Assembly: GCA_030068145.1 (NCBI GenBank)
Contig: JAPJBO010000123.1
Span: forward strand, 248,001 to 312,000
Direction: 5' to 3'
Source: Diplonema papillatum
Taxonomy: Eukaryota > Euglenozoa > Diplonemea > Diplonemida > Diplonemidae
Length of the DNA stretch: 64,000 nt
The notes beneath the pieces were generated by a model that was not told where the DNA came from, ran no database searches, and saw only the letters and a program-made list of their open reading frames with translations. Shown here piece after piece: positions 2,426-64,000 of this stretch; positions within the stretch are counted from its first letter, which is position 1, and the number at the start of each line of letters is the position of its first letter. The translations under genes and the position numbers were made by a program.

Positions 2426-5400
2426 TTAGGTGGGCGACACCCTCCTCCTGTAGCTCGGCTGCGGCGTTGACGTGCGGCTGCTTCGGCGGGCGGAGCTGGG
2501 GGACCGCGGGGCCGGCGACTCGCTTGTGCGGGTCACGTCGAAGATCGAGTTGAGGCTCGACGTCGACGCGTCGAGCAGCGAAACCCGCGGCGACGGCGGC
2601 GCCAGCAGCAGGCTTCCGACGGTGTCCCCTAGCGAGGTTGCCCGCGTCCGGGACTCCCACGTGCCGTGGGTCCAGTTACAGCGGACGAGCTCGTGCTTCG
2701 CCTCGCGCTCGAGCTTGTCGCGCCCGCTGGCGAAGGTATGCCAGAGCCGAGTGTACCTATAGAGCCACCTCCACTCCGCTTGCCACGCCGCAGTCAACAA
2801 CAGACGACCCGCGTGCTCTTCCAACTGCCCGGTGTCGACGGCGCATTCGGCGTAAATAACCGCGGCCGCCCTCTCTTCGACGCGCTTGAGCCCTCTGCCC
2901 GCGCTCGTGAAGAGCAGCTCGCGGTCTTCCCACTCCCACACGGCCTTCTCGTGCCGGTCGTGCTCCTCCCTCAGGCTGAACTCGCGGACGGCCGTGTCGA
3001 GGAGCGACCGCTTCATGGCGCACACTTCGCGCCAGCGGCGGTCTTCGAACTCGCGCCGCTCGGCGCGTTCCCCGCGGATGGCCTCGCGCTGCGGGCGGAA
3101 GCGGGTGCGGACGAGGCCGCCGCGGTGGAGGGCCTGGATCGTGGCGGCCGCCCGCTCGAGCTTCTCGCGGGCTTTGTCAAGGCGGACCATGCGCAGGGAC
3201 AGCGGCACGAGGAGGCCCTTCAGCTCGCCGCTGCGGAGCGCACGGTCGATGTGCGCGTGGTGCCACTCCGAGGCGCGGAACGTGACGTCGACGCAGTCGT
3301 AGGCGTCGCGCAGCCGCAGCCCGCCGATCGCGTCCGTCGTCAGCGGCGGGATCGTCAGCACCTCCGGGTCGCTACGCTTCCGCTGCGAGTCGTTGCTGCC
3401 GCGCCGCGACGACGACACCGACGACAGGGCCTGGCGGGTGTGTGTTGCGTTCGTGAAAACCCGGAAGAGAAACAAGTTTTTGCCTGGAGGTTTTTACACC
3501 CCCGACGAGCAATAATACGCTAAGAACACCCCCGTCCTGGTTCAGACTCACGCCGCATCAGAAGCTGTCGTCTGTGTTTCAAACGACTCTTGGCGAGCTG
3601 TGTTCCCCCGTAGCTAGTGTGCACGATGCCGCTGCACACAGAAACCCGTAACAACGTTGGGAGGTGACTACCTACAACTTTGTACGGGTAACATCCATAC
3701 GTAGATCCTACTACTGCGTGGTATACTGCTACCTCAGTAGGTGGATGGATACATACACCGCTGCTGCATCGCATCCGGGATCTGAGGACCACGAGGTCGT
3801 GGTAGCACATGCCGAGGTGGTACTACGACGTAGCATCTACACTTATGAGTACGGTGTATGCATATGTACGTACATACTACCTACAGTACCCTAGGTTACG
3901 CTCGGGATTCTACCAGCATCCTGTGACTAGATGCTCGCCCACAAGCGTTGAGGTATTCGCACGGGGGCGCTCGTCTTTATGGCAGGCTGGGGGGAAAACA
4001 TGAGCATACCCTCGGCAGGCCGTTGTGCGCAAACAGCGGCGGCGTCGATCCTCCTTCCGACGCGTTCTCGACGACCTTGTTGCCGTCGAGGAGCAGCTTC
4101 GCGGGCAGAAAGTTCGGATCCGAGACAAAGTTGTAGTCGCCGAGTTTGGGCTTCGACGAACGCCGTTCGCTGAGAGAAGGCTGCAGACGATCGTCCAGAC
4201 CCTGTCGTGGGCGGAAGAAGTTGGTTTATTTCAAGAGCGCACGGTGCTCAAAACAAAACGAAGCGGCTGTCTTTTTCACGAGGGAATGGGTAACATAGAT
4301 ACATGAGGGTTGAAAACGAGACGCGCACCTGATCCGCGTGGACGGGTGGAACACGAGGACGCCGCCTGATTTGATGTGGTACGCGATGTCGGGCGGCGGG
4401 CCGCGGACGGCCTCGGCCAGCGTCTCGTTGACGGGCTCCGTGCGGATGCGCATCTTGCGGCGGTCGAGCACGAGCCCCTCGGCGCTGCCTTCCAGCGACA
4501 GCACGACCCGCGCCGGCGTGCATCAGGTACCGCACGTGGCAGCGGCACCCGCTCGCATCGCGTCTGCCTCGCAAAAAATGTAAAATAGAAAAGCCAAAAG
4601 GGTCGCCGGGGGAGTGTAAGACTATGGTATGAAACCTTGAGGGGCTGGTCCTCTTTATTAGTTTTCACCGGGGGAGGAGGGTAGCTGACATAAATGTATG
4701 GGGGTTGAAAACAAGACGCGCACCTGATCCGCGTGGACGGGGGGCGACCGCACGAAACACGAGGACGCCGCCTGATTTGATGTGGTACGCGATGTCCGGC
4801 GGCGGGCCGTGGACGGCCTCGGCCAGCGTCTCGTTGACGGGCTCCGTGCGGATGCGCATCTTGCGGCGGTCGAGCACGAGCCCCTCGGCGCTGCCCTCCG
4901 ACCCGCAGCCGCTCGCATCGCAAAAAATGTAAAATAGAAAAGCCAAAAGGGTCGGTATGAAACCTTGAGGGACTGGTCCTCTTTACTAGTTTTCACCGGG
5001 GGAGGAGGGTAGCTGACATAAATATATGGGGGTTGAAAACAAGACGCGCACCTGATCCACGTGGACGGTGGGCGACCGCACGAACACGAGGACGCCGCCT
5101 GACTTGATGTGGTACGCGATGTCGGGCGGCGGGCCGCGGACGGCCTCGGCCAGCGTCTCGTTGACGGGCTCCGTGCGGATGCGCATCTTGCGGCGGTCGA
5201 GCACGAGCCCCTCGGCGCTGCCCTCCAGCGACAGCGCGACCGCGCCGGCGTGCATCAGGTACCGCACGTGCAGCGGCACCCGCTCGCATCGCAAAAAATG
5301 TAAAATAGAAAAGCCACAAGGGTCGGTATGAAACCTTGAGGGACTGGTCCTCTTTACTAGTTTTCACCGGGGGAGGAGGGTAGCTGACATAAATATATGG

Positions 5401-7673
5401 GAGTTGAAAACAAGACGCGCACCTGATTCGCGTGGATGGTGGGCGACCGCACGAACACGAGGACGCCGCCTGACTTGATGTGGTACGCGATGTCGGGCGG
5501 CGGGCCGCGGACGGCCTCGGCCAGCGTCTCGTTGACGGGCTCCGTGCGGATGCGCATCTTGCGGCGGTCGAGCACGAGCCCCTCGGCGCTGCCCTCCAGC
5601 GACAGCGCGACCGCGCCGGCGTGCATCAGGTACCGCACGTGCAGCGGCACCCGCTCGCATCGCAAAAAATGTAAAATAGAAAAGCCACAAGGGTCGGTAT
5701 GAAACCTTGAGGGACTGGTCCTCTTTACTAGTTTTCACCGGGGGAGGAGGGTAGCTGACATAAATATATGGGAGTTGAAAACAAGACGCGCACCTGATCC
5801 GCGTGGATGGTGGGCGACCGCACGAACACGAGGACGCCGCCTGACTTGATGTGGTACGCGATGTCGGGCGGCGGGCCGCGGACGGCCTCGGCCAGCGTCT
5901 CGTTGACGGGCTCCGTGCGGATGCGCATCTTGCGGCGGTCGAGCACGAGCCCCTCGGCGCTGCCTTCCAGCGACAGCGCGACCGCGCCGGCGTGCATCAG
6001 GTACCGCACGTGCAGCGGCACCCGCTCGCCGCCGCCGCGGGCGACCGACTTGAGCTGGTGGTGCTGCAGGTGCTTCGCGGCCGCTGACGCTCGGCGTGCC
6101 TTCCCCTCGCACGCCTGCGCAATCGCGCTGTGCAGCGCCCGCAGGAACAGCAGGCTGCCGCGCCCGCCGTCCCGCACGCAGTAGTGCCGCGACCGCGACA
6201 CTAGGCAGGTCAGCGTGACCTTGCACGGCACCGTCTTCGCGTGCTCCTTGTTGTCCTTAATCACCTTCCGGTCAAGGGGCACCTCAAAGCGATCCAGCAA
6301 AATCACGTCCCCGCCGTTCAGGCTGTTGGACGTCGTGTACGTGCAGTCGAAACCCCGCTGCTTGAGCTTTTTATGGAGGTAGACGTTGAACGTGTTGGTG
6401 GTCACCCTGAACTCGCGCGTGGCGTGCCCCAAGAGCGCCTTCTTGAAGTAAAACGACGCGAGGAAGTTGTACCGCTTGCGGCAGTGCGCGAGCAGAACAC
6501 CCCCGACGGACGGCCTCCCGCCGACGTACACGCAACCTTCCTCGGGGACGGACTTCGGCGCGGTGTGGTGGGGGTGGTCATGCGCCGGCGGGATGGTCTG
6601 GTTGGCAGACGCCCCTGGTAGGGTGAGCCCGTTATGGCTCGCGAGGCACATGCCTGGGGGCCTGCGGAGGCTGCCGTAGCAGGACACCGTGTCGCAGATG
6701 ACCACCGGCGCGTTGAGCACCGCGCCGTGGTGCTCGGTCTCGCGGCAGAGCGCGCTCGTGCGCAGGAACCCCTTCCGCAGGTCGTCTTGCCGGCCGACGT
6801 CGAAATCCTTGCAAAACAGGTGCAAATCGACGGGGCTCGGTTGCCCTGCCGCGGCGCCCGGCACCGTGTGGTCGAAGAGCCCCGTGGTCCAGTGCCCGAG
6901 GCCGATGAAAATGAACAGAAAGACGTCCTCCGGCTCGACGCTCTTCCGCTGCGCTTCCGAGAAGGCACGGAGCACGTTCTGCTCGATAGGTGGGATCCCG
7001 CCCGGCCCGTCGTGCAGCTCGGTCACCTTGTACCCGGCCGTGCGCAGCAGGTTCGATATTTGAACCGCGTCGTCGGTCACCTGCGGGTTTGCTTTCTTAA
7101 CTAACGCGAACCGCGCTCGTCCAGGTAAAAGCTCCGGCACAAACCAGGCACAAATTGTGCCTCGGCAAGAACCGCGCACAAACCCGATAAGAGCCATGCA
7201 CAAAGCCGGCAACACTAGACTTGAATCCGATCACACACCGTGATAATATTACATTTGCGCTGAACTGAACATTTCCGGAACAACGGCTGCACATTGAAAG
7301 AGAGAAAACGAAGCCAACGACAAAAAAGGTCACGCAGGAAACTCAGGAGGTTTGAACCGTGAGCACACGAAGGACAAGAACCCTGTGGCTTCTGTTTTGT
7401 ATCGCCCTTGGCCAGCCGATGCTGATCGTCCATTGCTTCGTTTTTCAGTGCAACTAAGGAAAGGTTCCAACGTTGCTTGCTTGCTCCAGAGCGCAGGTTC
7501 GTTTGAGAATTGGGGTTCAAAATCTCCGGGTGGCTACCAAGTACCAGGGACGACAGATTCCTCAGTATTGCCGCACAGTTTTTGCACACCTGGCTGCAGG
7601 GCAACAACCGCGGGTCGTTGTAGTTTTCGATGCCTACGACGACGGCTTCGAGATGCCCGCGCATGCTGCGCAT
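2426..7673 (-). CDS. Caspase-like (peptidase C14) protein with amplified exon and IQ motif
   Basis: Likely cysteine protease of the caspase/metacaspase clan. Proposed exons: 7673-7545, 7080-5794, 5653-5423, 5282-5052, (4911-4724, 4551-4329), 4201-4010, 3430-2426. The core joins are phase 0. The product is about 1,024 residues without the two bracketed copies. It opens with VVVGIENYND, the usual first C14 strand. Joining exon 1 to exon 2 restores a normal core (NCAAILRNLSSL, then VTDDAV). The likely catalytic His is in GLGHW (about residue 106) and the Cys in DTVSCYGS (about 177); the family's usual His motif is SGHG, so this one is unusual. Residues 396-472 form a 77-residue module repeated by the next exons. 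The last exon has an IQ motif (ATIQALHRGGLVRTRFR), suggesting calmodulin or EF-hand binding, and a Ser/Pro-rich tail. The ATG at 7673 follows a pyrimidine-rich tract and CAG at 7700-7698, suiting spliced-leader addition. It could instead join the gene upstream through 7865-8067. Confidence 0.75.
4329..5794 (-). repeat. Tandem array of one caspase-gene exon
   Basis: Five copies of the same exon plus intron, 371 bp apart for the best three. The first is the 3' end of exon 7080-5794. Copies at 5653-5423 and 5282-5052 are each 231 nt (77 codons), phase 0 at both ends, and separated by near-identical 140-nt introns, so they can be added without changing frame. The next copy (4911-4724, 188 nt) has lost about 50 nt near its 5' end. 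The last (4551-4329, 223 nt) has small insertions and a deletion. In the downstream copies the acceptor is GCGAG, formed inside what is continuous coding sequence in the first copy, so the duplication itself created a splice site. The intact copies give almost identical proteins with RRKMRIRTEPVNETLAEAV at the centre. Confidence 0.88.
7345..7455 (-). repeat. Dispersed segment inside caspase intron
   Basis: Part of the 464-nt intron 7544-7081. On the minus strand it resembles plus-strand 1745-1865 (shared runs such as AACGAAGCAA, GGACGATC and CATC followed by GACCAAAGG-like sequence). It is probably an old mobile or duplicated fragment with no coding role. Confidence 0.45.
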
Positions 7674-8076: not shown

Positions 8077-11000
8077 TTATTTTGTTTGTACGCACTGGCG
8101 GAACTTCCCTGCTTTGGTAATTTCGTGCAGTACGCCGCCAACTTCTAACTTTGCATTGGCAACCCCCAAAGAAAAGTGGCATACGGGAGCTGCACACGGC
8201 GCCGAAGGGGCCAGGTTGGAGTCCGACCTGCGCTGCCGGCGAACGAAGCTGCCGCGCCTTCCGTCGCCGCTGTGGAACGCCTCCACCGTGGAAGACGGCG
8301 TGCGCCGCGCCACCGCGGTGTGCCTCCGCTGCGGGCTGTGCGGGCACGAGGCTGCTGCGCCGCCGTGCAGCGGCGCGGCGGCGCTCCCCAGGCTGGTGCG
8401 GGCGAGCCGGACCACGCGCTTGGGCGCGGGGCCGGCGAGGACCGCCAGCAGCGCCAGGGCAGCGGCGGCGCAGGCCGCCTCTGCCGCAGGCAGCGGCGGA
8501 CCACCCGCGTCCTCCGGGTCTGCCTCCGGTCCCCGGTCGGCTCTGAGCGCGGCCAGGTTCGCGGCCGAGGCGGGGCGCTTGCGCAGGCGCCCCGCGTAGG
8601 TGCGGCCGCCGGCCCCGCCCTTCGGAAGCGACCCGCGCGCCGCCCGCGGCGAATTGCCGTCGGACAGGACCTCCTCCGACGGGCACCGCGTGTCGTCGAA
8701 GCCCGGCGACGGCAGCGCCGGCTTCGGCGACAACGCGTCGCCGCCGAGGGTCGCCCGCCGCAACGGGGAAAACGCGGGCCGCTTGCCCGCGTCGGTGCTC
8801 TGCCGCCGCTTGGCCAGCGGCCGGAGCCCCCGCGGGTGGTGTTGGGGGCCCGGGTCCGGTGTGTGCCTTCCGCCGGCATCTCGCGGGATCGACTCCCTCG
8901 GCGAGCCGGTGGGTCGCGTGAACGACTGCGCCCGCTTCGCAAGGCTCGGAGACGACGACGGCTTGCCGCGCTTGCCCGGCTTGGAGCCGACGGGGGAGAC
9001 GCACAGGGGGCCGTCCTCGTCGTCGTCCCCTTCACCCGGGCCCCCGTGCCGCGTCCACGGCGACAGCGGCGCGGCCAGCTGCAGCGTCGGCCTCGGCTTG
9101 TCCGAGGCCTTCCGCGAAGCGGCGGGGGAGACGCACAGGCCGTCGTCGCCCCCCCCGTCTTCCTCGAAGCTGGGGCCGTGGCCCCCGGGCCTCTTCCACG
9201 GGGATACCGGCGCCTGCAGCGACGCCCGCGTCTTGCCCGAAGTCTTCCGCGAGGCGCGGCCGGGCGACGACGGATCCTCGCCTGGAGCGTCGAATGGGAT
9301 GAAGCTTTCGTGCACGCGCAGGCTCGGGTCGCGCTGCACTGTGGGCGGGTCGTCGGAGGGGGAAGACGGCGGCGAGCGCTTCCCTGCTGCGGCGCCGGAA
9401 CGCAGCGTGGCGTCGGTGGTCTGCTTCTCGTGGAGGACCAGTGGGGAGACCACGGACTCCGTCCCGGGGCTGGTCGGGTCGGCGGCGGGCGCGAAGTTGT
9501 TGCTCGATTCGCACCGGACCACGTCGTTGGTGCCGTCGCAAGACGGGCTGCGTCCCTTCAGGCAGCCGCTGGCCGCGAAGCCGCGGCCCCCGGACGCGTT
9601 GCTGGCGTTGGTCGATGCATCGAGGCCTCCCAAAGCTTCCGCACGAGTCCGGGCGTTCGCAGAGGTTTCCCCGTCCGGGCTCTGAGCGTTCGCCGAGGCT
9701 TCGTCCCTTGGGGTCTGGGCGCTTGCGGATGGGTCCTCCGCCGGGCTCTGCGCGTCAGCGGAGGTTTCTTCCCTTGGGGTCTGGGTGTCTGCGGATTCTT
9801 CTTCCCGGGGGCTCTGGGCGTAAGTGGAGGTTTCTTCCCGCGGGCTCAGAGCGTTTGTGGAGACTTCTTCCCTCGGTGTCTCGGCGTTTGCAGATGCTTC
9901 CTCCCCGGGGCTCTGGGCGCACGTGGAGGCTTCTTCTCGCGGGCTCAGAGCGTTTGTGGAGGCGTCATCCCTCGGAGTCTCGGCGTCTGCGGATTCTTCC
10001 TCCCGCGGGCTCTGGGCGTAAGTGGAGGTTTCTTCCCGCGGGCTCAGAGCGTTTGTGGAGGCTTCGTCCCTCGGAGTCCGGGTGTTTCCGGATTCTTTCT
10101 CCCGGGGGCTCAGAGCGTTTGTGGAGGCCTCATCCCCCGGAGTCTCGACGCCGGCGGAGTCATCTCCCCGGGGGCTCTGGGCGTACGTGGAAGTGTCCTC
10201 CCGCGGGCTCGTCGAGGCGTCCGTCCGCGCGTTTGCCGAGTCTTCGCCCCGGGGGCTCCGGGCGTCGGTGGAGGTGTCCTCGTCCTTTGTGCTCTGCGCG
10301 TTGGTCGAGCACTCGGCGTCCCTGGGGCTGGGAAACGCGTTCGACGCGGTCTGCCCGTCGGACACGGGAGACGCGGCTTGCGCCCCGACCGGCGTTCGGC
10401 CATCAAGCTCCGCAACGGCAGCACTGGGTGCCTCGTTTGCCGCCTGCTGCTGGCTGCGGCGGCGTTCGACCGGAAGAAGCTGCGCAGCGTCCGCGGAAGA
10501 CGTGCGGGAGACGGATACCGCCGACCCGTGCGTGTTCCGGACGAGCGCCTCCTTCGGAGACGGCGGCCGCCCGCTCTCTCTCCCGGGGGGATCAGCCGGG
10601 ACGCCCGTCGGCACCAGCGGCGTGCCGGCCCGGCTGGCGGTGAACTCGGACACCTCGTGCAGCAGCGCTACCGACGCCGTCGACCCGTTGCTGACCTCGA
10701 GCGACCGGTCCCGGTGCAGCGGGTGGGCCTTGGCCGCGGCCTGCACCGGCGACCCCGGCGGCCCGGCCCGCAGCGTCGGGAACAACACAGGCGTCGTATG
10801 CGGGGCAGCCGGCTGCTGCTGCTGCTGCTGCTGCTGGGGTTGCGTCGCGTGTGAGATGACGGAGCGGGGGGTCCAGTGGCCGGACGAGAACGACGGGCTG
10901 AGGGGGGAGAGGGACACCCCGTGGACGGCGGGGACTAAGTGCGCCGCCGCCGACTGGCCCGCCGGGATGGACACCGCAGTTTGCAGGGGAGACCCGGGCT

Positions 11001-13315
11001 TGGAGAACCTCGGCGTCGGGTGCGGCGTGGGCACCGCCGCCGGAGAGTGCCTTGGCGTCGGCCTGCCGCTGCCGCATCCCGGCGCCCTGGCTGCCGGGAT
11101 CGGCTCCTCGGCGGGAGACGACCACGCGGCCGTGGCGACCGCGCTCGGCTCCGCGCGCGGCTGCCGCCGCGGCACGGCCGGCTTCGCGCCGTCCGCCGGG
11201 CCCTGGGGAGGGGGCGGGTGCTCCCGCGGAGCCGACCGCAGGGGGGATGCCAGCGGGTGCTTCTTCGTCCCCGCGTGGGTCGAGCTCGAGGCGCCGGCGG
11301 AGTGCAGCTGGAACGGCCGCTTGGCTCCGGAGGCGCGGTCGAGCCGCGGACCCGCGTCCGCAGAGTCGCAGGTGTCTTCGCCTTGCTTCGCGTGCCGTTG
11401 CTGCTGCTGCTGCTGCTGCTGCTGCGGCGGCGGCTGCAGGACGGTGTGGGCGCCGATGTCCATGACAGCGAGCTTCACCTCTGGGCGGCCTTCGGGCGCC
11501 GCCGAACCCGAGCCCGCGCCGGCGCTGTTCTGCGCACGCTCGCGGCTCCACTGCCGCGCTTGGAACGGCGTCGGCGCCGCCGCCGCCGGTGCGTCGAGCA
11601 CCGGCGCCGGGAGGGTTACGACGTGCACCGCCGCGGCTGCCGCCGCCGACAGGGGCCGGGGACTGGTCTCGCCCGCTACGCTGCTGCCGCCTGCGCGAGG
11701 GGTCGTTGTTGTTGGTGCTGGTTTTGAGGGATAAGGTATCTTTTTGCGGTGGCCTCCGCTGGTCTGGTAGTCTGTGCTACCTCCGTTCTTCTACACTCGT
11801 ACTCTTCTCTGCTCACTACTGTACGTACTCTTTTCACTCTTTCACTCTCTTTGGCTAGCCAAAAAAGACTGCGACCCGCGACACCACGAACACATTCGCA
11901 ATGAATGTGGCCCTGGGCCCCCCGCGTGCATACATGTTGAGCAGGGGTTGCCATGTAGCCCGCATCGGCCCGCCTGCGTGAGGGTGGAACACGGTGTATC
12001 AGCACTGAGATGGACTTGTATCAATGAAAGCAGTTCGCTTTGAACAAACGCGCACACCTTGCAGAGCCGGTGCGTCCTCTGTGTCCGGAGCCTTCGGCGA
12101 CTCGATTTTCTCTACCTTCTTCCCGCGCACGACTTCGTCGAAGCAGTCCACGGGTTCGGCCGCGCGCAGCCGGTTCATGGCCTGCCGGGCCTGCTGCTGG
12201 TGAACTTCCGCGGCGGAGTGCGACGGCGAGGGCGCCGCCGGCGAGGCGACCCGCCGGTTTCCCCTGAGGCTCGCGGAGCCGGGGGGGCCGGCTGTGTGCG
12301 GACGGGATATGACCTCCGGGTGCTGCTGGTGCTGGTGGTGGTGGTGATGGTGGTGCTGGCTGCCGGTTGGGTCGTCGAAGAGGATCTGGCAGCCCCGCTG
12401 CCCCGGCGACGGGAGCTTCGACGTGGGGAGGACGTACGGCGCCGCGCCCTCCGCGATTTTCACGGGCATCTGGACCGAAAGCCGGCCGTCAACAGCGCCC
12501 GGGAAAGGCAGGCCGGCCTCGCGCTGGGCCGTCGGCGACAGGGCCCCAACGGGGCTCCGCGCATGGTTGGGGGGAGGGGTTTGGTAGATGAGGTGAGACG
12601 GCGGGTGGTTGCCGGTGGCTGGCGATGACGGGGGGCTCTGCGCCGCGCGTGGCTTCGGGAAGAGGGCGGCGTGGGTGTCTTCGTAGCGCCGTTCGTTGCG
12701 CCGCTTCGCGATGACCGACTCGACGCTTTGCGGCTCGCCTTTGTCGCACGGCCCTGCCGGCAGCTCGTCGACGGGGCTCGCCGTCCTCCTCTTGCGCACG
12801 CCGCCAGCGGACAGCCCCGCGAACCCCATGACCTGCGTCCACGACACCGGCGCCACCGCCGCCGCCTTCCGCAGGGGCTTCCCACACCCGGCTGTCAACT
12901 CACGGGTGCCGGTTGCACCCAGCAGCGTCGAGCCGCGGCTGCCGTCGGAGACGGCGGCCCGCGCGGTGTCCCTGCTGGGGAGCCCGGCGAAGAGGGATGC
13001 CTCCTTCAGGAACTCCGCGGTTTCGACCTCGCCCGGTGGCTCGGCTTCGTGAGCCAGCCGCTCTTGTTCGACGCGGCCGAGGACGTCGAAGTGCGACGAG
13101 AACCCCCGCGGCTCGTTGCCGTCGGGACCCCGCAGCGCGAGCGGGTCCGCCTTGTAGTGCACGGGGAGGTCGTCCACGCCGGCTACCGACATCCGGAGTT
13201 TTCTCCGGATCGCGGTCTTCGTGAGGTCCTCCCAGAACTCCTCCTCGGTCACTTTGTCGACGGCATCCGCGTCGAGGTCGCTGTTCAAGGCGCAGCCTTG
13301 ACCCACCGTCGGCAT
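8077..13315 (-). CDS. Large disordered Ser/Pro/Gln-rich protein
   Basis: Unrecognised protein of about 1,620 residues in two exons, 13315-12058 and 11717-8077. The 340-nt intron starts GTGTGC; both sides are phase 1 and the frame stays open. I chose the ATG at 13315 (MPTVGQG...), the first ATG of this frame. Exon 1 has a short, possibly folded, acidic start (EEEFWEDLTKTAIRRKLRMS), then Ser/Pro-rich sequence with a His run. Exon 2 is low-complexity, with two Gln runs from CAG repeats, 13-14 residue repeats at 10290-9650, and two copies of a module with SPW and LCVSP motifs at about 9290-8990. A short Ala/Leu-rich hydrophobic stretch (about 8500-8430) could be a membrane segment. There is no catalytic domain. 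Many SP motifs suggest phosphorylation; a scaffold or cytoskeletal role is possible but not shown. The 3' end may be spliced onward at 8091. Confidence 0.55.
9650..10290 (-). repeat. Coding repeat, about 40 bp unit
   Basis: Within exon 2 of the disordered protein. Imperfect repeats of 13-14 codons read as variants of SPREETSTYAQ alternating with TPRDEASTNAL. Charged Glu/Arg, Ser/Thr and one Pro recur at fixed spacing. The unit is visible in the DNA as variants of GGGCTC..GCGT..GTGGAGG. Copy number is likely to vary between strains. Confidence 0.8.
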
Positions 13316-31735: not shown

Positions 31736-31799
31736 AAAGAGTTGCGGCGCTAACTCCGCATTGTCGCTGATCATGCAAGCCTTGGGCCAGACCCGCTTG

Positions 31800-32167
31800 C
31801 ACCATCTGAACAAGCACTGCAATGATGTCTCACACAGTGACACAGCACCATCTGGACAAGCACTGCAATGATGTCTCACACAGTGACACAGCACCATCTG
31901 AACAAGCACTGCAAAGATGTCTCACACAGTGACACAGCACCATCTGAACAAGCACTGCAAAGATGTCTCACACAGTGACACAGCACCATCTGAACAAGCA
32001 CTGCAATGATGTCTCACACAGTGACACAGCACCATCTGAACAAGCACTGCAATGATGTCTCACACAGTGACACAGCACCATCTGAACAAGCACTGCAATG
32101 ATGTCTCACACAGTGACACAGCACCATCTGAACAAGCACTGCAATGATGTCTCACACAGTGACACAT
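31800..32167. repeat. 46-bp minisatellite, 8 copies
   Basis: Eight head-to-tail copies of a 46-bp unit starting CACCATCTGAACAAGCACTG and ending with CACACAGTGACACAG. Copies differ at one or two sites (GGACAA for GAACAA, AAGATG for ATGATG). There is no spacer between units and no open reading frame of note. Confidence 0.95.
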
Positions 32168-38826: not shown

Positions 38827-41826
38827 CAAGTGTTGGGATTTAAGGGAATTACACCTATTGTTTTATATACACTTGTGATTTCTTTTGTTGGGGTTGGGTT
38901 GGGGTTGGGATGAGTGTCTTCCGACGTTTCTTTCGGTTTCCTAACGTGTAATGAAGGTCGAAAGGTTCGGTGTAGTCGGGTACTGAACGGGGTGTAGACA
39001 CAAATTTGCACACGTTAACTTCGTTCTTGGTCGGGTTCAACAGTCACAAACTGGGCTAGCCAAAATCGCTACGACGTTACGACTTTATAGTCTCGGATTC
39101 CTGTTCTTGTTTCTCGTGGCCGGCTTCCAGTATTGTGCGTGCCCGTCTGTTCCGCCCGCCTTGCAGTTCGCGCCCGGCAACAGCGCGGGGCGGCGGACAG
39201 CCCCGCCGCAGCCGCCAGTCGCCGGAGCATTGCGCACACGCGGTGGTTGCCTTCTCGCACCGCCCGCGGCTATGATATACTTGTGATTTCTTTTGCTGGG
39301 TTGGATTGGAGTTGGGGTTGGGGTGGGTGTCTTCCGACGTTTCTTTCGGCTTCCTAACGTGTATTGAAGGTCGAAAGGTCCGGTGTAGTCGGGTAGCAAA
39401 AAGGATGCAGACACATTTGCACACGCTAACTTTGTTCTCGGTGTCGGATCCAACAGTTACTAACTGGGCTAGCCAAAATTGCTACGACTTTAGGCTCGGT
39501 TTCCTGTTTTTGTGTCTCGTGGTCGGCTTTCAGTATTGGAGAACTTTTGTGCATAGACTCACTGCCCGTCTGTTCCGCCCGCCTTGCAGCTCGCCCTCCT
39601 CGCGCCCGTCGACAGCGCAGGGCGGCGGGCAGCCGCCGCCGCAGCCGCCAGTCGCCGGAGCATTGCGCACACGCGGTGGTCGCCTTCTCGCACCGCCCGC
39701 GGCTATGATATTGTTTTATATACACTTGTGATTTCTTTTGCTGGGGTTGGGTTGGGGCTGGGATGAGTGTCTTCCGACGTTTCTTTCGGTTTCCTAACGT
39801 GTATTGAAGGTCGAAAGGTTCGGTGTAGTCGGGTACTGAACGGGGTGTAGACACAAATTTGCACACGTTAACTTCGTTCTTGGTCGGGTTCGACAGTCAC
39901 AAACTGGGCTAGCCAAAATCGCTACGACGTTACGACTTTATAGTCTCGGATTCCTGTTCTTGTTTCTCGTGGCCGGCTTCCAGTATTGTGCGTGCCCGTC
40001 TGTTCCGCCCGCCTTGCAGCTCGCCCTCCTCGCGCCCGTCGACAGCGCAGGGCGGCGGGCAGCCGCCGCCGCAGCCGCCAGTCGCCGGAGCATTGCGCAC
40101 ACGCGGTGGTCGTCTTCTCGCACCGCCCGCGGCTATGAATATATTCGTGATTTGTTTTGCTGGGGTTGGGTTGGGGTTGGAGTTGGGGTGGGTGTCTTCC
40201 GACGTTTCTTTCGGTTTCCCGGCGTGTATTGAGGTCGAAAGGTCCGGTGCAGTCGGGTAGCAAAAAAGGATGTAGACACATGTGCACACGCTACCTTTTT
40301 TCTCGGTGTCGGATTCAACAGATACAAACTGGGCCAGCCATCCGCGCGTCCAGCAGCGCGGGGCGGGCAGCCGCCGCCGCCACCGCCAGTCGCCGGAGCA
40401 TTGCGCACACGCGGTGGTCGCCTTCTCGCACCGCCCGCGGCTATGATATTGTTTTATATACACTTGTGATTTCTTTTGCTGGGGTTGGGTTGGGGTTGGG
40501 ATGAGTATCTTCCGACGTTTCTTTCGGTTTCCTAACGTGTATTGAAGGTCGAAAGGTTCGGTGTAGTCGGGTACTGAACGGGGTGTAGACACAAATTTGC
40601 ACACGTTAACTTCGTTCTTGGTCGGGTTCGACAGTCACAAACTGGGCTAGCCAAAATCGCTACGACGTTACGACTTTATAGTCTCGGATTCCTGTTCTTG
40701 TTTCTCGTGGCCGGCTTCCAGTATTGTGCGTGCCCGTCTGTGCCGCCCGCCTTGCAGCTCGCCCTCCTCGCGCCCGTCGACAGCGCAGGGCGGCGGGCAG
40801 CCGCCGCCGCAGCCGCCAGTCGCCGGAGCATTGCGCACACGCGGTGGTCGCCTTCTCGCACCGCCCGCGGCTATGATATTGTTTTATATACACTTGTGAT
40901 TTCTTTTGCTGGGGTTGGGTTGGGGTTGGGATGAGTGTCTTCCGACGTTTCTTTCGGTTTCCTAACGTGTATTGAAGGTCGAAAGGTTCGGTGTAGTCGG
41001 GTACTGAACGGGGTGTAGACACAAATTTGCACACGTTAACTTCGTTCTTGGTCGGGTTCGACAGTCACAAACTGGGCTAGCCAAAATCGCTACGACGTTA
41101 CGACTTTATAGTCTCGGATTCCTGTTCTTGTTTCTCGTGGCCGGCTTCCAGTATTGTGCGTGCCCGTCTGTTCCGCCCGCCTTGCAGCTCGCCCTCCTCG
41201 CGCCCGTCGACAGCGCAGGGCGGCGGGCAGCCGCCGCCGCAGCCGCCAGTCGCCGGAGCATTGCGCACACGCGGTGGTCGTCTTCTCGGCTATGAATATA
41301 TTCGTGATTTGTTTTGCTGGGGTTGGGTTGGGGTTGGAGTTGGGGTGGGTGTCTTCCGACGTTTCTTTCGGTTTCCCAGCGTGTATTGAGGTCGAAAGGT
41401 CCGGTGTAGTCGGGTGGATGTAGACACATTTGCACACGTCAACTTTGTTCTTCGGGTCGGATTCAAACAGGGCTAGCCAAGATCGCTACGACGTTATCGT
41501 CTCGGGTTCCCGTTCTTGTTTCTCGTGGTCGGCTATCTCCAGCTCGTTGGCGTAAGGGCACCGGCCCCGTTTGATGAATAAGACACGAAAAGACGAACGA
41601 GAAAACAGGGTGCTGAACAAGGGTGAAGAGAGGGGTAATACGAGGACGGGGAAAGAAGAGAACGCGTAAAAAAAAAAAAAAAAAAGGGCACCGAAATACG
41701 AAACTACATCGAAGAGGGAAAGAAGAAGTGTCCACCCACCCCCCCAACCTAAACTGTAGAGGAGCTAGTCAGAGCAGCAGATTTGTCAGAAAACAAGTAC
41801 GGTAGTGGTAGTAATGGCGGTAGTAT

Positions 41827-42072
<246 letters not shown>

Positions 42073-44049: not shown

Positions 44050-45460
44050 TGATGTTTAGGGCGGGGAGCTGAGCTGCACTAACAAGCATGGTTGTGCGCT
44101 CAACGACCGTCTCGACGAGCTTGTGTTCAGCGCAAGCGCCAAGCCCCAAGGTGCGCCACGCTTTGGAAAACCGGTAGCCACTGCTTTGACCTTTAGGCCC
44201 GTGGCTCTGCAGTACCGCCGAACACGTGAAGCTTGGCTCCCGTGTAGCAGGGTTTTCCCTGGTACGATGCACTGATCCCATCTGCGTGTTTCGTTTGTCC
44301 TTTAGCCCCACTACGGACGGAGGGGGAAATCTTAGTTTAATGTTTAGGCAGAGCACTGCCTCTCATGATGTAGAAAGGTCTCGCAACACAGCAGCAAACG
44401 TGAATCCTTTTTTGACTTGTCTTTACTCTGGAGAAAGTTCAGCTCGGGGTTGGGCATTGTATTTCAACATAAATATATGTCCTCCGTCTCCATTATCAGC
44501 GCGGAACCTGAGTACCTGCAGACAGGACAGCGGTGCTGTTCGTAGGAATTATCCCTTGCCGTAGCCGGCAAGAAACGACGTGCAATGTGCGCACGCTCAT
44601 TCATTACAGTAGTTGATACAATATTGACAGCTCACACCCCCCGCACGAAACTCAGCACACGGACGTTTTGTGCAGTTGGAATGCCGTGGGCATAGCAATG
44701 AATCCCGCGGTGTGGTTTGTGCAGGGAGCTACAGCGTTTTCGCCTTTTTGCGGTTGTGGCTTTCGTCCTTTGATGGAGTGGACCGACGCCTCTCGTCTCA
44801 CGGTTCAGATACGGCGGTGGCAGGCTTGCTCTTGCCGGGCGCTAGCGCAGCATTGCGCAGTGCGTGCCGCAGCCGTTGGGTGGTATTGACGAGGGGCTTC
44901 ACCGGACAACTAGCTCTTGTCGCATCAGTGGGGGGTCTTGGTCATTTGGCACCAATGAGTGCCACCCTAACTAAGTTACGCTACCGTAAGCGGCAACGTG
45001 ACAAAAAATTGACGCGCTTTTCGTCGTGGCGCAACTTGCGACGGTTGCAAACGTTTGGTAGCAAGCTGCGCGACATCGTACTTCGTATAGTACTTCGAAA
45101 TGGCGGTTACCCCGAGTATTTATTACAAAGCAGGCGCCTGTTCTAAAGAAGAAGGAAGAAGAGCAGGAAACGGCAGCGAGCGAGTGCTGCAAAGAAAGCC
45201 GTGGTTCGCGGTTGCTTGGTGTCAAAACACAAGGAGACGGCGGTGGTCCTGAAAACGTGTGAACGATTTCCGTGGCATCAGTACTGGACGTGCAATGGGG
45301 GCCCCCAGAGGGTCACACGCACTCTTGCCGCAACGTACACGCATCGCGGATAAGGCAACGAGTACAGAGCAGTCCACACGCAGACGAGCAGTGAAGCGGC
45401 CCGCGTCGCAGGTGGCACAAACGGAAGAAGCCCGTGCAGCAGGGAGTGGAGACGAGGTGA
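44050..45460. other. Intergenic, no gene supported
   Basis: Plus-strand frames at 44670-45146 and 45259-45582 are open, but match nothing I know. The second ends in a dispersed repeat, so it may be part of an element. A hairpin motif (TTTAGGCAGAGCACTGCCTC) at about 44341 recurs at 63620. Confidence 0.35.
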
Positions 45461-46757: not shown

Positions 46758-47346
46758 GTTCGCGAATCCAGCTGATGATGGATCAAAGTTGTATAGTCTC
46801 CCGGGAATCACACCGGGAAAAAATCCCCGAGCCTTCCCCCCGGGACCCAAGCTCCCAACCCGAAGGTGGCAATGTTGTAAAGCAAGCGTATCTTTGTTGG
46901 TTGTTGGGGGGGAAAATCTTACTTTCGTGTTCAGGCGCTACTTGCCTCTCATGTGTTTGATGCTAGCATCAAGTCTTCTTCGCGGAATGCAGAGTCTTAT
47001 TTTCTGTTCTTTTCTTTCTTTCGTTGTCGACAACTTCTTTTTTCTCCTTCTACTTTCTTTACCATGGTTTTTTGGACTTTCTGGGTGGGGAGGGGAGTGG
47101 GTGCTTGTTAACCGCGGTGCGTGCACCAGAGGCCAGGTTTTTTTTTTTTTTGTTCGCAGTAACAGTGAATCGTAAACTCGAAAGAGAACGCTGGCAGCGT
47201 GTTTGGGAGGAGATCAACCTACCGAGCAATGTTGTCCCTGGGTCTTGAGCTTAGACGTATATAGGTGAAGCACGGGTGACACACTGTAATCTAGAAAAGA
47301 AAGTCACAATGATGTAGAAGACTATTTCGATGATGTGCAGCTTCTT

Positions 47347-47507: not shown

Positions 47508-47810
47508 TTTTTTTAAAAATGTCTCAGGTGAAGCCTGCGTCACCTGAACTTCCACGGTAAAAATGGTTAGGGCATCGTTAGGCCATGCTTTCACACCGAG
47601 GATCGGTACTGAAGATCGTGTATCGAGCAAGCTGTTGCCCTTACGCGAGATTTCTGTTCCCGCTGAGCTTGCCTTAGGACACCTGCATTAAAGTGTAACA
47701 GCGGGCGGCAGCTTCATGGCAAGACAATACTAGCCTCCTTCGAAATGAGCACAAGGCAGTCCCTCGAGTATTTTTGAGTTTCGCGGTTTAGGGGGAAATT
47801 TTGACATCGC

Positions 47811-49489: not shown

Positions 49490-49745
49490 ATACAAGAGGG
49501 ACTGCCGGAGAAATAGCTTCGACACGTACATAGCACGTTAGAAGCAATGGATGATATCTAAACCTGTCAATGAACACAATTGGTGGACAAGTCTGGTGCC
49601 AGCACCCGCGGTAATTCCAGCACGAAAAGCGTATATTAATGCTGCTGCTGTTAAAAAGCTCGTTGTTGGATCCAGAGCTGGTGGCCCGGTTTGCTGGGCA
49701 TCAGCGTACTGCTGGTATTTAGAAGGCTGGGATTTACCCCTCGCA
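49490..49745 (+). pseudogene. 18S rRNA fragment (pseudogene), euglenozoan-like
   Basis: The segment from about 49556 aligns with the 530-loop/V4 start of small-subunit rRNA: CACAATTGGTGGACAAGTCT, GGTGCCAGCACCCGCGGTAA, AAGCGTATATTAATGCTGCT, GTTAAAAAGCTCGTTGTTGG. Upstream, AGAGGGACTGCCGGAGAAAT looks like the earlier 18S stretch with AGAGGGAGCCTGAGAAAT, so about 100 nt of rRNA between them seems deleted. Changes at near-invariant places (CCAGCACGA for CCAGCTCCA, CTCGTTGTTGG for CTCGTAGTTGG) and the loss of flanks make it non-functional. From about 49740 it merges into family R1 sequence, so it may have been carried by that element. The ACCC spelling at the 530 loop is, from memory, typical of Euglenozoa. 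Confidence 0.83.
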
Positions 49746-51310: not shown

Positions 51311-54300
51311 TCACAAAAGCGACGACGTGTGCTGGAACTTCAGCTGCCACTCCGGCCACGTCGCCGCGAGCAGCGCCGAAGGGTCGCCGTTGGGGGGCGT
51401 GAGGTGCGCTTGGTAGATGAACGTCTCCTTCTTCAGCTCGAGGCGGGTCTTCGATCGCACGAACCGCTCGTAGCCGTCGTTCTTCGACGGTCGCGGGGGG
51501 ACAGGAAGCGGGTACGGCGTGCCCTGCCCGGATGACTCCTCCGAACCGGTGCCGGTCCCGTGCGCCTGTGTGAAAGTGGGTTGAAGGATGGGCGAAGACG
51601 AAACAACGGGAGAAAAACTGTGAAAGTGGGGTGAAGGATGGGTGAAGACGAGACAACGGGAGAAATAATGTTTGGGCGGGACACTGCCTCGCATGCATGT
51701 TTGATGCGAGCATCAAGTCTTCTTGGAAGAAAGTGTAACATAGAAAGGGTAAAGGGTAAAGGGTAAAGGGTAAAGGGTAAAGGGTAAAAGGGTAAAAGGT
51801 AAAAGGGTAAAAGGGTAAAAGGGTAAAAGGGTAAAGGGTAAAAGGGTAAAAGGGTAAAAGGGTAAAGGGTAAAAGGGTAAAGGGTAAAAGGGTAAAAGGG
51901 TAAAGGGTAAAAGGGTAAAGGGTAAAGGGTAAGGGTAAAGGGTAAAGGGTAAAGGGTAAAGGGTAAAGGGTAAAGGGTAAAGGGTAAAGGGTAAAGGGTA
52001 AAGGGTAAAGGGTAAAGGGTAAAGGGTAAAGGGTAAAGGGTAAAGGGTAAAGGGGCCGCAGGGTGTGTAAGACTCCGCGGTAGGTAGGGTATGAAACCTT
52101 GAAGGATTAGTCCTCACTATTATTTTTCACCACGGTGTTGTGTGCACCTCGTTCCACCTCGTTCTTCGTCTCGGGTTTCACTCGCGAACGCAGACCAAAG
52201 CAGAGTTAGACATCATCACTGCCGGCGAGTGGTTGTTTTTTAGAGTTAAAGTTCGCTTGAAATTCCGGGGGTTTAGGGTCTCCGTGTGACCGTTCACGAA
52301 TGGGTTCTCATAGAGCAAGAAGAACTGGTAATCGTGGTAAACTTTCTTTTTGTTCCTTTTACGGCTATTCTCTCCTTTTATGCGTCTTTTGCTCTCTATT
52401 GCTGGGAATACCGGTATTCCTGGACTTTTGGTGCTGAAGGACTAGAACTATATGGTTACGGGTTGCATATTTGGTGCACGCTTTCGCTATGGGTTATGGC
52501 TAGCCATGTCCGGGACTGTGTGTGACCGCCATTTTTGTGTTTCCGACGATCCCGTGTGGGCGCACAGACATTTCTTTGTGTTCCCGACGCCTTTGCGACC
52601 TTTTTAGAGTTGAAGTTCGCTTGGAATTCAGGGGGGCTCTACAGAGTCCTCCAGATGACTTTCGGCACCAGGGATGTCCTTTCGAATACCAGTCCCTTGT
52701 GCGTGGCGAAAGTGGGTTTGTGTTTCCGAATCGGTCTAGGCAGACAGCCCTTCCACCTAGGCGTGGGTGTGTGCACCAACCACCATCTCTACTTCTCTGC
52801 CCGACCAACTTCTCCGTGCACATGCGTAGTGCATGCGTATAAGTCGATCTTTGAGTGCGTGAGCCCCTCCGAAGAAAGGTCCATCACACTAGTTCCAGGC
52901 TACTTAGCCCGGGTCTCTGGGTCGCGTCCCCCTCCTTCTCTTGGTCGCCTAGTCTTGCGTCTTGTTGGTCCGTCCGGGCTGGTCGCTTCGCGCTTCCCCT
53001 TCGACTTGCATGCGTAGTGCATGCGTGTAGCAGCACTGTGTGTATACCTAATACCTAAGCCCGCAGGTGGAGCTAGGTATTGGTACACAGCGTGTGCACA
53101 CTGCGCAGTGCAGTACGTACGCAGCGTTTCAAGGAATCCATGTTGTCGAAGATCGCCCGGAGTTGTACTCTAGAAGGAACCGCCCGGCTCATGACCTTTC
53201 TTGCGACGGAAATGATGGTGTCTTAGCGACACGTTTAGAGTCTGCAAGTGGGGGTGCTACGAACGACGTGAAGGAGGCGTGCATACCGAGCTCTCGCCAC
53301 TGGTGACGGTGCCGTTGAAAGCGAGGGACTGCTCTGGGGTGATGCTGCGAAGGCGGCTGTTGGAGACAGAGGAAGACTGGGTTGCTTCAAAATCGTCGTC
53401 TTCCGCCTTGGCGGGCGTCATGTGGAAGATGAGGTTGCTGGGGCGCACTGCGATCACGCCGACTTTCCCGAAGTTGACCTGGATCAGCGTCCCCTGCGGC
53501 GGCTTCGCCCGGACTACCTCCGTGACATACCCTCGCATTCCGTTCAGCTGCACCTGCTTCGTGAGGCCACGCCCCTCCACCCAGCAGCCTTCGACCACGT
53601 CCACCTCGACTCCGATCGCCAACTCCTTCTTGTTCCCTGATCGGAAGGCTCGCAACGCCTGTCGTGTGGAAAGTTACCGGTGAAATGACGGTGCTTTCAA
53701 AGAGTGAACGTTCGCTTTTGATAACCCGGGGGGGGTTTGCCAAAAATACTAAAATGCCCGAGGGGTTGCCTTGGGCATATTTCGACGGAGGCTAAGGGGG
53801 GAGAAACAATACAACTACAAGTGGAAGTGGGGCGAAGTTGTGACGAAAGAAAAGGGGGGTCCTCTATGGTGGGCGCGGGCGGTGCTTTCCCCCCCCGACA
53901 GCATGTGTCAGACTTAGCCAATCTCAAGGCGGCTGATTCGTTGGGATTGCTTTGCAAGGTGCCATTATGGCACTTTCTTTTGTAGCGTTTATTGTGGTTT
54001 TGTGCGCCAGCGGAACTCACCTTTGGTAAGCCTCGTGTAAGCCGCGAGTAGTGTGCTGCCAACTACTGTTTTTTAGAGTTATAGCTCGCTTGAGAATCCG
54101 GGATGTTAGAGTCTCCGGGTGACCTTTGTCGAATGGGTTCTTTTAAAGCTAATACGTACTTGGTGGGTTTGGGGGGGGGGCATGCATGGCTTCTTTCGTG
54201 TACACTTTACTTCCTTGCTTTGGCAAGTCAGGTTCGAAACAATTTGTGACCGACACCAAGTTGTTAGCGTTATTTGTGGATTAGAAGGCCGGTATTTTAA

Positions 54301-57300: not shown

Positions 57301-58412
57301 AGAAGGCTACCCACGCGTTGAACGCGGTGCTGCTCGGAAGCCACGTGAACATGGTCTGCACCACACTCCACGGGAGCAGCTTCCGCATGGTCCGCAGCGG
57401 GATCTTCCAGTCCTTCGGGTACACAATACACCCGCACGGCTTGATGCAGCCGTCCGTTTCCTTCTCGTGCTCCCGTGCGTGGTACACTTCGGTCGCCCGG
57501 TCCATCAACTTCTGCACGGTCAGTTTACTGCACTCAATCCACTGCACATCCTTCGCGGCGAGCGCAGTTCGACCCGACTGCATGCAGGTGTCGACGTCGC
57601 CCAAGTGCAAATGGCAGTACATCAACCCCAGGTACACAGTGTCCCGCGTCGGGTGCAGCAGCAGGAGCTCGAAGAAATGGTTCAGAGCTTCTGCTGCGTC
57701 GCCGTCCTGGTACTTGTCCCACGCTTGCTGGACCTCCAGAGACGACCGGTACTCGGTGGTGCACTCGTTGAGGTACATGAGGATGTCGTGGTGCACGTCG
57801 TCGTCGGTGATGTAGTCCAGCGGGAACATTGCGTTGTGGTCCTTGCGGTACCGAGCCCCGGCGTATATCAACGCGCGTGCCACGTCGGGTTTGTGGTACG
57901 CGCAAGCCACGTGCAGCGGCGTGACCCCGGACCCACCCTCTGGGAGCTTGTTGTCCTCGTTCTTCCCCTTCCGGAAGAGGGCGAGCCAGTTGACGTCAGC
58001 CCCGTTCTCGGTCATGACCTTGACGTCCTCCTCCTCGCCTTCGGCCACGGCGCTGAAAAACACGCCGACCTGCCTCCGCAGGTCCCATGACTTGTAGTTG
58101 GCCCGCAGGTAGTCCCGCCTCTCCCGCTCGGCCTTCCGCTGGTTAGCGTAGCAACGCGAGCACACCGCCTCGAACCTGTCGTCGTTGGTGGATGGTCCGT
58201 GGACTGGAAAATCGGTACTCTGAAGTGCCCAGTTGCCCGTAGAGGGATGTGCTTGGCGAGGATGTTGCTCGGTGGCGGGGTGATGGGCCACCCTGTCGCG
58301 AACCCTTGATTTTACCCCCCAACGCGTTTAGGGAGAAGTTTCTGCTCTCCGTACTGTCTGACGAGAGCTGCCCAGAAAGGGTGAAATAAGAAGACGTCTT
58401 TGTGGCTGACAT
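51311..58412 (-). CDS. Ankyrin/TPR/PDZ scaffold protein
   Basis: Five proposed exons: 58412-58316, 58203-56861, 55607-55461, 53658-53287, 51565-51311; 737 residues. All junctions keep frame (first intron phase 1, the rest phase 0). Donors are GTAAAA, GTGTGTGC, GTATGC and GTATGC; acceptors are CCAG, CGACAG, CGACAG and CACAG. Ankyrin-like repeats lie at about 78-178 (GVTPLHVACAYHKPDVARAL, then DHNAMFPLDY), TPR-like helices at about 190-260, then a conserved-looking region. A PDZ domain at about 457-545 exists only after splicing three exons: FTLRLGDPNEDLGM, then VTPNTAACRSGLLPG, then LRAFRSGNKKELAI. That is strong support for the model. An SH3-like fold follows (GYVTEVVRAKPPQG...VNFGKVG), then a C-terminal exon with no known domain. 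Probably an adaptor binding C-terminal peptides. The first exon is the least certain part. Introns 3 and 4 are full of repeats. Confidence 0.78.
51566..51668. repeat. 52-bp tandem duplication of a splice acceptor
   Basis: Two copies at 51566-51617 and 51618-51668, sharing GAAAGTGGG.TGAAGGATGG and ACAACGGGAGAAA. On the minus strand each ends in TTTCACA(CA)CAG, so the final acceptor of the scaffold gene exists twice. Use of the upstream one would add 52 nt and shift the frame. Confidence 0.85.
51744..52053. repeat. AAAGGGT satellite in a scaffold-gene intron
   Basis: About 310 bp of AAAGGGT with AAAAGGGT variants concentrated in the middle (about 51786-51925). The 7-mer resembles, but is not, the TTTAGGG telomere repeat (the complement is ACCCTTT). 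It lies in intron 4, just beyond the duplicated acceptor. Confidence 0.96.
52228..52520 (+). repeat. Dispersed family R2, copy with extra 120 bp
   Basis: Starts and ends like 47347-47507 (same GTTCACGAATGGGTTCTC and CTATGGGTTATGGCTAGCCA blocks). About 120 bp between AGAGCAAGAA and CTATATGGTTACGGGTTG is absent there. One copy has a deletion or the other an insertion. Confidence 0.82.
52843..53005 (-). repeat. Inverted copy of 45467-45633
   Basis: Reverse-complement copy lying inside intron 4 of the scaffold gene; see 45467-45633 for shared blocks. Confidence 0.87.
55030..55083. repeat. CT-rich microsatellite
   Basis: Imperfect CTCTCTCCT repeats on the plus strand, immediately left of an R3 copy (55085-55260). 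Located within intron 3 of the scaffold gene. Confidence 0.85.
55640..56780. other. Intron sequence of the scaffold gene
   Basis: Part of intron 2 (56860-55608). Holds T tracts (56487-56502), two TTTCCGACGACCCCG-type repeats at 56133-56166 that resemble 52538-52555, and a copy of the repeat at 660-780. I see no further exon. Confidence 0.5.
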
Positions 58413-58765
58413 CGCTATAGCGCAAGGGAATGTTACTTTACATTATCTTTAAGAAGACGTCTTTGTGGCTGACATCGCTATAGCGCAAGGGAATGTTACT
58501 TTACATTATCTTTAAGAAGACGTCTTTGTGGCTGACATCACTATAGCGCAAGGGAATGTTACTTTACATTATCTTTAAGAAGACGTCTTTGTGGCTGACA
58601 TCACTATAGCGCAAGGGAATGTTACTTTACATTATCTTTAAGAAGACGTCTTTGTGGCTGACATCACTATAGCGCAAGGGAGTGTTACTTTACATTCTCT
58701 TTAAGAAGACGTCTTCGTGGCTGACATCACTAGCGCAAGGGAAGGTTACTTTACTTTCTCTTGGG
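58388..58765 (-). repeat. 63-bp repeat x6 carrying the scaffold start codon
   Basis: Six units, starting every 63 bp from 58391. On the minus strand each reads ATGTCAGCCACAAAGACGTC then TTC. In the unit nearest the gene this runs on in frame as MSATKTSSYFTLSG; in the others a TAA follows MSATKTSS. Each unit thus holds a start codon, and five are nine-codon upstream ORFs. Units nearest the gene are almost identical and the farthest two are more diverged. Confidence 0.9.
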
Positions 58766-63060: not shown

Positions 63061-64000
63061 CTTCGCGCCGCGGGTCTGCCCGCCTCGGGTTCTCTTTTGT
63101 GTGTGTTCTCCTCTTGTTGCTTTTTTGTGGGGGGGTGGGTTTGCCGTTTTTTGTTTTTGTGTTCTTTTCCTGCGCTTTTTTTGGGGGGGGATGTACTTGG
63201 AAATCTGGGTCCTGTGTATTTCTTCACATGCGCGTCGGGGTGTTGATTTTACCAGCATGTGGTGTCTAGTAGGGAGCTGCGCTGGTTGCCTTCCGGGTGG
63301 CCTTCCCCTCAGATGCCAGTTCGGCTGATACTTGCCGCAGTTTTGGTGCGGAGCTGTGGGGGGTCGTTGTATAATCGTCTAGCTTGAAGGGAATTGGAGA
63401 AACAGAGGACTATTGCATAGATAAAAAGAAGATTTATGAAGGCTCGCCAACTTAGGCCCTCGCGAAAGGGGCGGAGAAGGCCACAGAGGGGCAAGAGGAG
63501 GGCCCATGCGTGCTTCAAAGGCTATCGCCTGAGCTTGTTGCATGGCGGTAACGCCAGCGAGTCGATGATACTTGCCGCAGTTTTGGTGCGGAGCTGTGGG
63601 GGGAAAACCTTAGTTTAATGTTTAGGCAGAGCACTGCCTCTCATGGGGGGGGAAGAATCTTAGTTTACGTACAGCTTGGACAGCATGCTGTCTCATGGGA
63701 TTCAACCAGGCGCGGTACTCCTAGAACGCCACCGGGTGAGAGTGGCAGTGTCTCGGGGCACAGAGGCTGTGGTGCACGGCCTGTGTTTCGTGTGGGCTAC
63801 AGCACATTTAACTCCTTTGATCTTTTGCAGCGGCAGCCTCCTCAAGTATTTCCTACAAAGCGGGTGCTCATACAACAAAAAATATGTGCTTTGATCTTTT
63901 GCAGCGGCAGCCTCCTCAAGTATTTCCTACAAAGCGGGTGCTCATACAACAAAAAATATGTGACACCGGAGGGTGGTTAGTCTCAGGGCTGCCTAGACTC
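63061..64000. other. Upstream of YGPEP gene; repeats
   Basis: 63061-63300 is the presumed 5' region, with a C/A-rich minus strand (63100-63200) suitable for spliced-leader addition. A 37-bp block (GATACTTGCCGCAGTTTTGG and on) occurs at 63328 and 63566. The hairpin TTTAGGCAGAGCACTGCCTC is at about 63620. R1 sequence follows, its last 75 bp duplicated (63814-63888 and 63889-63962). No gene is supported. Confidence 0.6.

Follow-up and report, generated by a model that had tools for sequence, protein, structure and literature searches.

The window analyzed here is a stretch of 64,000 nucleotides (nt) from the genome of the marine flagellate Diplonema papillatum (contig JAPJBO010000123.1, positions 248,001 to 312,000), and it carries a caspase-like gene in which the 3' end of one exon is repeated in tandem. 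Coordinates are window positions, gene and array lie on the minus strand, and the exon/intron model is inferred throughout, with all junctions in phase 0. Exon 1 (7590..7673), with an assumed ATG start, is followed by putative intron A (7081..7589; 509 nt, GTGTGC...CCGCAG), exon 2 (5794..7080; 1287 nt), putative intron B (4202..5793; donor GTGCGC), and exon 3 (4010..4201; 64 codons, preceded by a CAG acceptor and followed by GTATGC). Exon 2 alone scored 16.2 bits against Pfam PF00656 (Peptidase_C14), below the curated cut-off of 21.4 bits, and joining exon 1 to it raised the score. Exons 1 to 3 joined reached 27.6 bits (E 2.9e-6, residues 10-353 of 521), and the predicted protein qualifies as a caspase family member by the Pfam cut-off. 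The joined protein contains GLGHW and DTVSCYG, seen by eye as candidates for the catalytic His and Cys.

The array starts from C1 (5794..6024), the 231-nt 3' end of exon 2, and continues through putative intron B as alternating exon copies and intron-like spacers. Spacer I1 (5654..5793; 140 nt, GTGCGC...GCGATGCGAG) leads to the intact copy C2 (5423..5653), and I2 (5283..5422), the same as I1 at 140/140 positions, leads to the intact copy C3 (5052..5282); each intact copy is 231 nt of 77 open codons. Beyond I3 (4912..5051; 2/140 differences from I1 and I2), the copies are decayed and frame-broken: C4 (4724..4911; 188 nt) is followed by the longest spacer form, I4 (4552..4723; 172 nt), and C5 (4329..4551; 223 nt) by I5 (4202..4328), the 3' remainder of the native intron, which ends CGACAG. 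The exon parts differ at 2 of 231 sites between C1 and C2 and at 3 between C1 and C3 and between C2 and C3, and Tandem Repeats Finder reported a period of 371 nt (3.0 copies, 98% matches, 4905-6029) with a decayed extension at 4626-5226. The duplicated unit, 231 nt of exon end plus 140 nt, spans the exon-intron boundary. An earlier sequence-only reading had described five copies of a 231-nt exon with a 140-nt intron. Five copies are indeed present, but the first is the parent of the array and no separate exon, which leaves two intact and two broken added copies, and among the four added introns I4 alone departs from a length of 140 nt. That three copies are intact and near identical down to the introns, and that phase 0 and GT..AG dinucleotides recur at each of C1 to C5, we found as it had said.

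The tandem array of the exon 2 3' end is real. DNA search matches within it had E-values of 2e-191 to 6e-115, and chance likeness is therefore out of the question. That an assembler wrongly multiplied the repeat units is very improbable: C1 to C3 are about 99% alike and I1 equals I2, as such an error would leave them, but each of C4, C5, I4, and I5 has changes of its own, which means that an array of some form is present. Long PacBio reads, moreover, support a similar array published for this species (Valach et al. 2023, PMC10161547; this and the other papers below are cited from the portions available). How many inner units there are is less sure. Recent tandem amplification of a phase-0 unit, as first proposed, is supported.

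What the array represents is suggested by the D. papillatum genome paper, the available part of which describes tandem repetition of gene portions in dozens of genes, among them cases where the 3' end of an exon recurs inside an intron (PMC10161547). In our gene, a part is repeated in tandem beside the gene with degenerate copies, and by that description it is probably a repeat-bounded gene. The structure is most likely another case of the kind of array already reported. We consider it probable that the array is silent, the exon 2 3'-end copies being removed inside an intron spanning 5793-4202. We favor this reading because the same type of structure is published for the same genome, because the variable exon sites described below show no codon-position bias, exon and intron parts diverge alike between C1 and C4, and C4 and C5 are frame-broken, because the added acceptors end in GAG where 7 of 10 introns inferred in HSP70 genes have GTATG and CAG, because two HSP70-like loci carry comparable partial-exon arrays, and because I5 lacks a dispersed repeat that I1 to I4 carry from the point at which I4 and I5 diverge. 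The likeness to repeat-bounded genes extends to genome, tandem gene part, degenerate copies, and a 3' exon end as part of an intron. Unlike there, the repeated part belongs to modeled exon 2 instead of a first exon, and splice-site dinucleotides are present at the copies, two of which have kept their frame open; at the joint here lies a dispersed repeat, a feature that the consulted part of that paper does not mention.

Whether the copies might instead be real exons, with C2 and C3 or all of C2 to C5 included constitutively or alternatively to add 77-residue modules, turns on frame, constraint, and splice signals. The frame arithmetic holds, since 231 nt is 77 codons; C2 and C3 are open and in phase, and a 140-nt spacer is an ordinary intron size. 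Among the 16 possible inclusion patterns of C2 to C5, 8 kept the frame of exon 3 and none met a stop before 4010. Coding constraint, however, left no sign in the codon-position test of the copies: the 14 variable exon sites fell 5/5/4 at codon positions 1/2/3, without a third-position bias, and four or fewer third-position sites would have a probability of 0.004 if two thirds were expected there. Likewise, C1 and C4 differ at 10/187 exon sites and I1 and I4 at 9/140 intron sites (Fisher p = 0.81). The module (residues 381-457, encoded by C1) lies beyond the caspase match at residues 10-353. Finally, the portion of the genome paper available does not present such arrays as exons but places them in introns or outside the mRNA (PMC10161547). 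The claim that the copies are spliced in is unsupported on these grounds and on that of GAG in place of CAG, and we regard inclusion as unlikely.

Several observations weigh against a silent array, and some of them speak for real exons. C4 and C5 together measure 188 + 223 = 411 nt, or 3 x 137, such that including both restores the native frame of exon 3; but compensation of this sort has a chance of about 1 in 3, and the GC-rich exon is stop-free in that frame anyway. Between C1 and C5, exon sites differ at 5/221 and the native intron stretch of I1 and I5 at 6/38 (Fisher p = 0.0018). This lower exon divergence since C5 points to either past constraint or exon conversion, and a purely neutral history would be disfavored. 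Moreover, a T-rich tract precedes the AG at the added acceptors, the intron B donor GTGCGC departs from the GTATG consensus, and one HSP70 intron that we set aside also had a GAG acceptor. Finally, the published RNA evidence comes from a different gene, DIPPA_19968, the one case illustrated in the available text, in which the array is 5', long PacBio reads back the assembly, and RNA-Seq coverage places the array outside the mature mRNA (PMC10161547).

The weight given to the GAG acceptors depends on what a diplonemid intron looks like. In four published Diplonemidae, introns end in CAG, and in three of these species they begin with GTATG, as far as the consulted part of the source goes (PMC12621601). 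Among 10 introns inferred in HSP70 genes of this genome, the 7 convincing ones read GTATG..CAG, several of these being paralogues. The other three were set aside as misfits, with donors GTCACT, GTTTGG, and GCCGCC and acceptors GAG, AAG, and AAG; they scored 139, 172, and 93, and since the lowest score kept was 166, one rejected row outscored it. The off-consensus donor at 5793 admits another explanation, namely that there is no donor, that translation runs 21 codons further to a stop at 5728-5730, and that the array occupies a long 3' untranslated region (3' UTR). The frame does stay open to 5728, the median 3' UTR is about 800 bp, and in single-exon genes the 3' UTR may consist of repeats (PMC10161547, available part), but the gene is probably multi-exon, as exon 1 raises the Pfam score, and exon 3 is open and in phase between a CAG acceptor and a GTATGC donor. 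We find this explanation difficult to credit, and give it less weight than inclusion of the copies.

How the spacer arose may be read from its joint. I4 begins with 50 nt of native intron, and its positions 51-172 (window 4552..4673, with shorter versions in I1 to I3) align to a dispersed repeat at at least 36 places outside the array, 20 of which reach position 172, the acceptor G; 40 of 469 first-look candidate places were scored, and 4 of those 40 lay inside the array itself. I5 tracks I4 as far as GTGAAAA and then diverges, which suggests that I5 never held the repeat, though a deletion from I5 is possible. A near-identical source for the spacer filler was not found among the 40 places scored of the 469, the best outside match being 79%. 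The repeat has an internal TTGATGC..GCATCAA palindrome, with poly-C near the ends of other copies, and the array joint ends at the GATGC half of that palindrome. A hammerhead ribozyme, suspected by eye in the repeat, was discarded when the 9 loci searched out of 20 gave no Rfam match at the gathering score and one of the 9 gave no hammerhead family up to E 10. Further pieces of the repeat lie in the window at 44319-44371, 46906-46982, 51666-51771, 52028-52221, and 63598-63645.

The acceptor GCGAG was said to have arisen from coding sequence at the breakpoint. The letters GCGAG do match the exon exactly, but the match is limited to these last letters, and the 3' half of the spacer with its T-rich tract comes from the dispersed repeat. 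At this position, all 30 pattern matches to the repeat show GATGCTAGC or GATGCTGGC, the array reads GATGCGAGC, and the exon reads GGCGAGC. The repeat as the source of the acceptor AG was considered and set aside: the 30 pattern matches, in 26 loci, comprised 27 TAGC, 3 TGGC, and no GAGC, with one match (L010) appearing off-family. The exon appears the likelier source of the AG, although a divergence of about 20-25% in the repeat fragment weakens the comparison. The splice signals do not come from duplicated gene sequence alone, since the 3' part of I4 aligns to the dispersed repeat, and the proposal that tandem duplication by itself makes a new intron needs revision. Overall, the observation of the sequence-only reading was confirmed and its interpretation partly supported.

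From the junction letters and the order of divergence we infer a route in which native intron was followed by repeat, and repeat by exon, through short homologies; it is the simplest account of the joints. A break or stalled fork within the native intron would have started the event. Repair would have copied part of the dispersed repeat, from CGGTGAAAA to GATGC, and then switched into the exon through short homology (GC, GCGAGC), such that exon end and intron were copied again. This would have produced C1, a spacer containing the repeat, and C5 joined to the native end of the intron, and unequal exchange would then have multiplied the inner units C2 to C4. In the transcript, splicing would most likely connect donor 5793 with the acceptor that precedes 4201, the array would be lost with a 1592-nt intron, and the protein would contain one module.

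Three arrays in this genome were examined in all, the other two being at HSP70 loci fetched for another purpose. In L063 (1651-5249; C18:112500-118500), an HSP70-like gene has a 5' exon part in four tandem copies, with self-matches mostly of 96-98% and a short piece of 93%. In L064 (1973-3860; C507:70500-75500), a second HSP70-like gene has three such copies at 85-94%. Because the conserved ATPase domain would be partly repeated upon inclusion, we read both arrays as probable intronic relics, and either gene might be dead. Two exon copies in L064 break just before a hairpin with 20-bp arms, the core of which, TTGATGC..GCATCAA, is that of the dispersed repeat (fold -23.7 kcal/mol versus -7.6 for shuffles; z = -8.2). 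L063 had no such hairpin element, and so two of the three arrays examined show a palindrome at a joint, which may be coincidence, the repeat being common. We speculate, with considerable doubt, that the hairpin-bearing repeat seeds copying of exon ends into introns genome-wide, supplying a T-rich tract and an exonic AG per joint, and that such arrays are nurseries for introns and modules, some spliced at a low level.

Duplication has been linked to new splice sites elsewhere, and the comparisons below hold for the consulted parts of each source. One case is an intron gain in a potato RNA-dependent RNA polymerase gene (PMC4974935), where the duplicated piece also spans an exon-intron boundary and one splice site is formerly exonic while the other is inherited. 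The caspase-like gene would be its mirror image, with the donor inherited and the acceptor new. Also unlike the potato case, a dispersed repeat supplies the 3' half, and the splicing is putative. In the AGGT model (Rogers 1989; ATP2A1, Hellsten 2011, both as told in PMC4974935; Drosophila cases, PMC2891723), tandem duplication likewise supplies splice sites, but there exonic AGGT is duplicated and the peptide unchanged, whereas the boundary-spanning unit here would lengthen the peptide. Repair of breaks by capture and duplication of adjacent DNA, with exons and splice sites among it, is also known (PMC2671141), but from vertebrates, whereas the route here is reconstructed from two junctions.

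If the gene is no more than repeat-bounded, it is a clear example, recent and well dated, whose joint can still be read. Were the copies spliced even occasionally, exon and intron birth would have been caught in the act, with a dispersed repeat giving the splicing tract. The array is also a caution that automated gene models in D. papillatum may invent exons, and the genome paper, in the part available, also warns of spurious introns (PMC10161547).

A close paralogue to serve as outgroup was not found, as the protein search of the genome returned 10 matches, 5 being the gene and its copies and 5 weak (E 5e-4 to 0.39). A Protein Data Bank sequence search gave no match up to E 1, a search of viral_contigs gave no relative (7 pattern stretches, 0 confirmed), and a single-sequence structure model of exon 2 was useless (mean predicted local distance difference test score, 32.9). 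A weak IQ motif (E 0.1) was matched in a minus-strand frame at 3493-2426, possibly a later part of the caspase-like gene. On the other side of the gene, a minus-strand open frame at 8077-11790 encodes 1237 residues, among which Ser, Pro, Glu, and Ala abound; a coding repeat with a 33-nt unit occupies 9676-10210, and the frame gave no Pfam match up to E 0.1.

The genome searched comprised 271 Mb in 2910 contigs, and the published assembly 280 Mb in 6181 contigs (PMC10161547). According to the part of that paper available, spliced leader, 5S, and U2 share a unit in D. papillatum that other diplonemids reportedly lack, U2 occurs up to 27 times consecutively, and 28S pieces lie scattered in the thousands. 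Our search listed 27 of 46 U2 places on contig C1335 (46 scored of 2120 candidates). On contig C66, one locus has U2 next to 5S and another has U2 next to the spliced-leader end, and the spliced-leader repeats of contig C91 contained no 5S or U2 by Rfam. A 20-base diplonemid spliced-leader end had 624 exact matches in the genome, and its reversed control had none. These spliced-leader, U2, and 5S sequences fit the diplonemid D. papillatum as the source. A photosynthetic alga was set aside after an exon-wise search for the chlorophyll a/b-binding family gave no match.

The window itself holds isolated ribosomal RNA pieces by Rfam, one of the large subunit at 47543-47710 (minus strand, 68.7 bits) and one of the small subunit at 49513-49626 (plus strand, 63.9 bits), which resemble the published scattered 28S pieces. 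Adjoining arrays of 430-nt units at 38859-40340 (3.5 copies) and 40362-41288 (2.2 copies) are possibly another gene-adjacent array. Simple or short-unit arrays are also present, namely (GTA)90 at 41802-42072, AAAGGGT x43 at 51744-52054, eight 46-nt units at 31799-32166, and six 63-nt units at 58387-58762.

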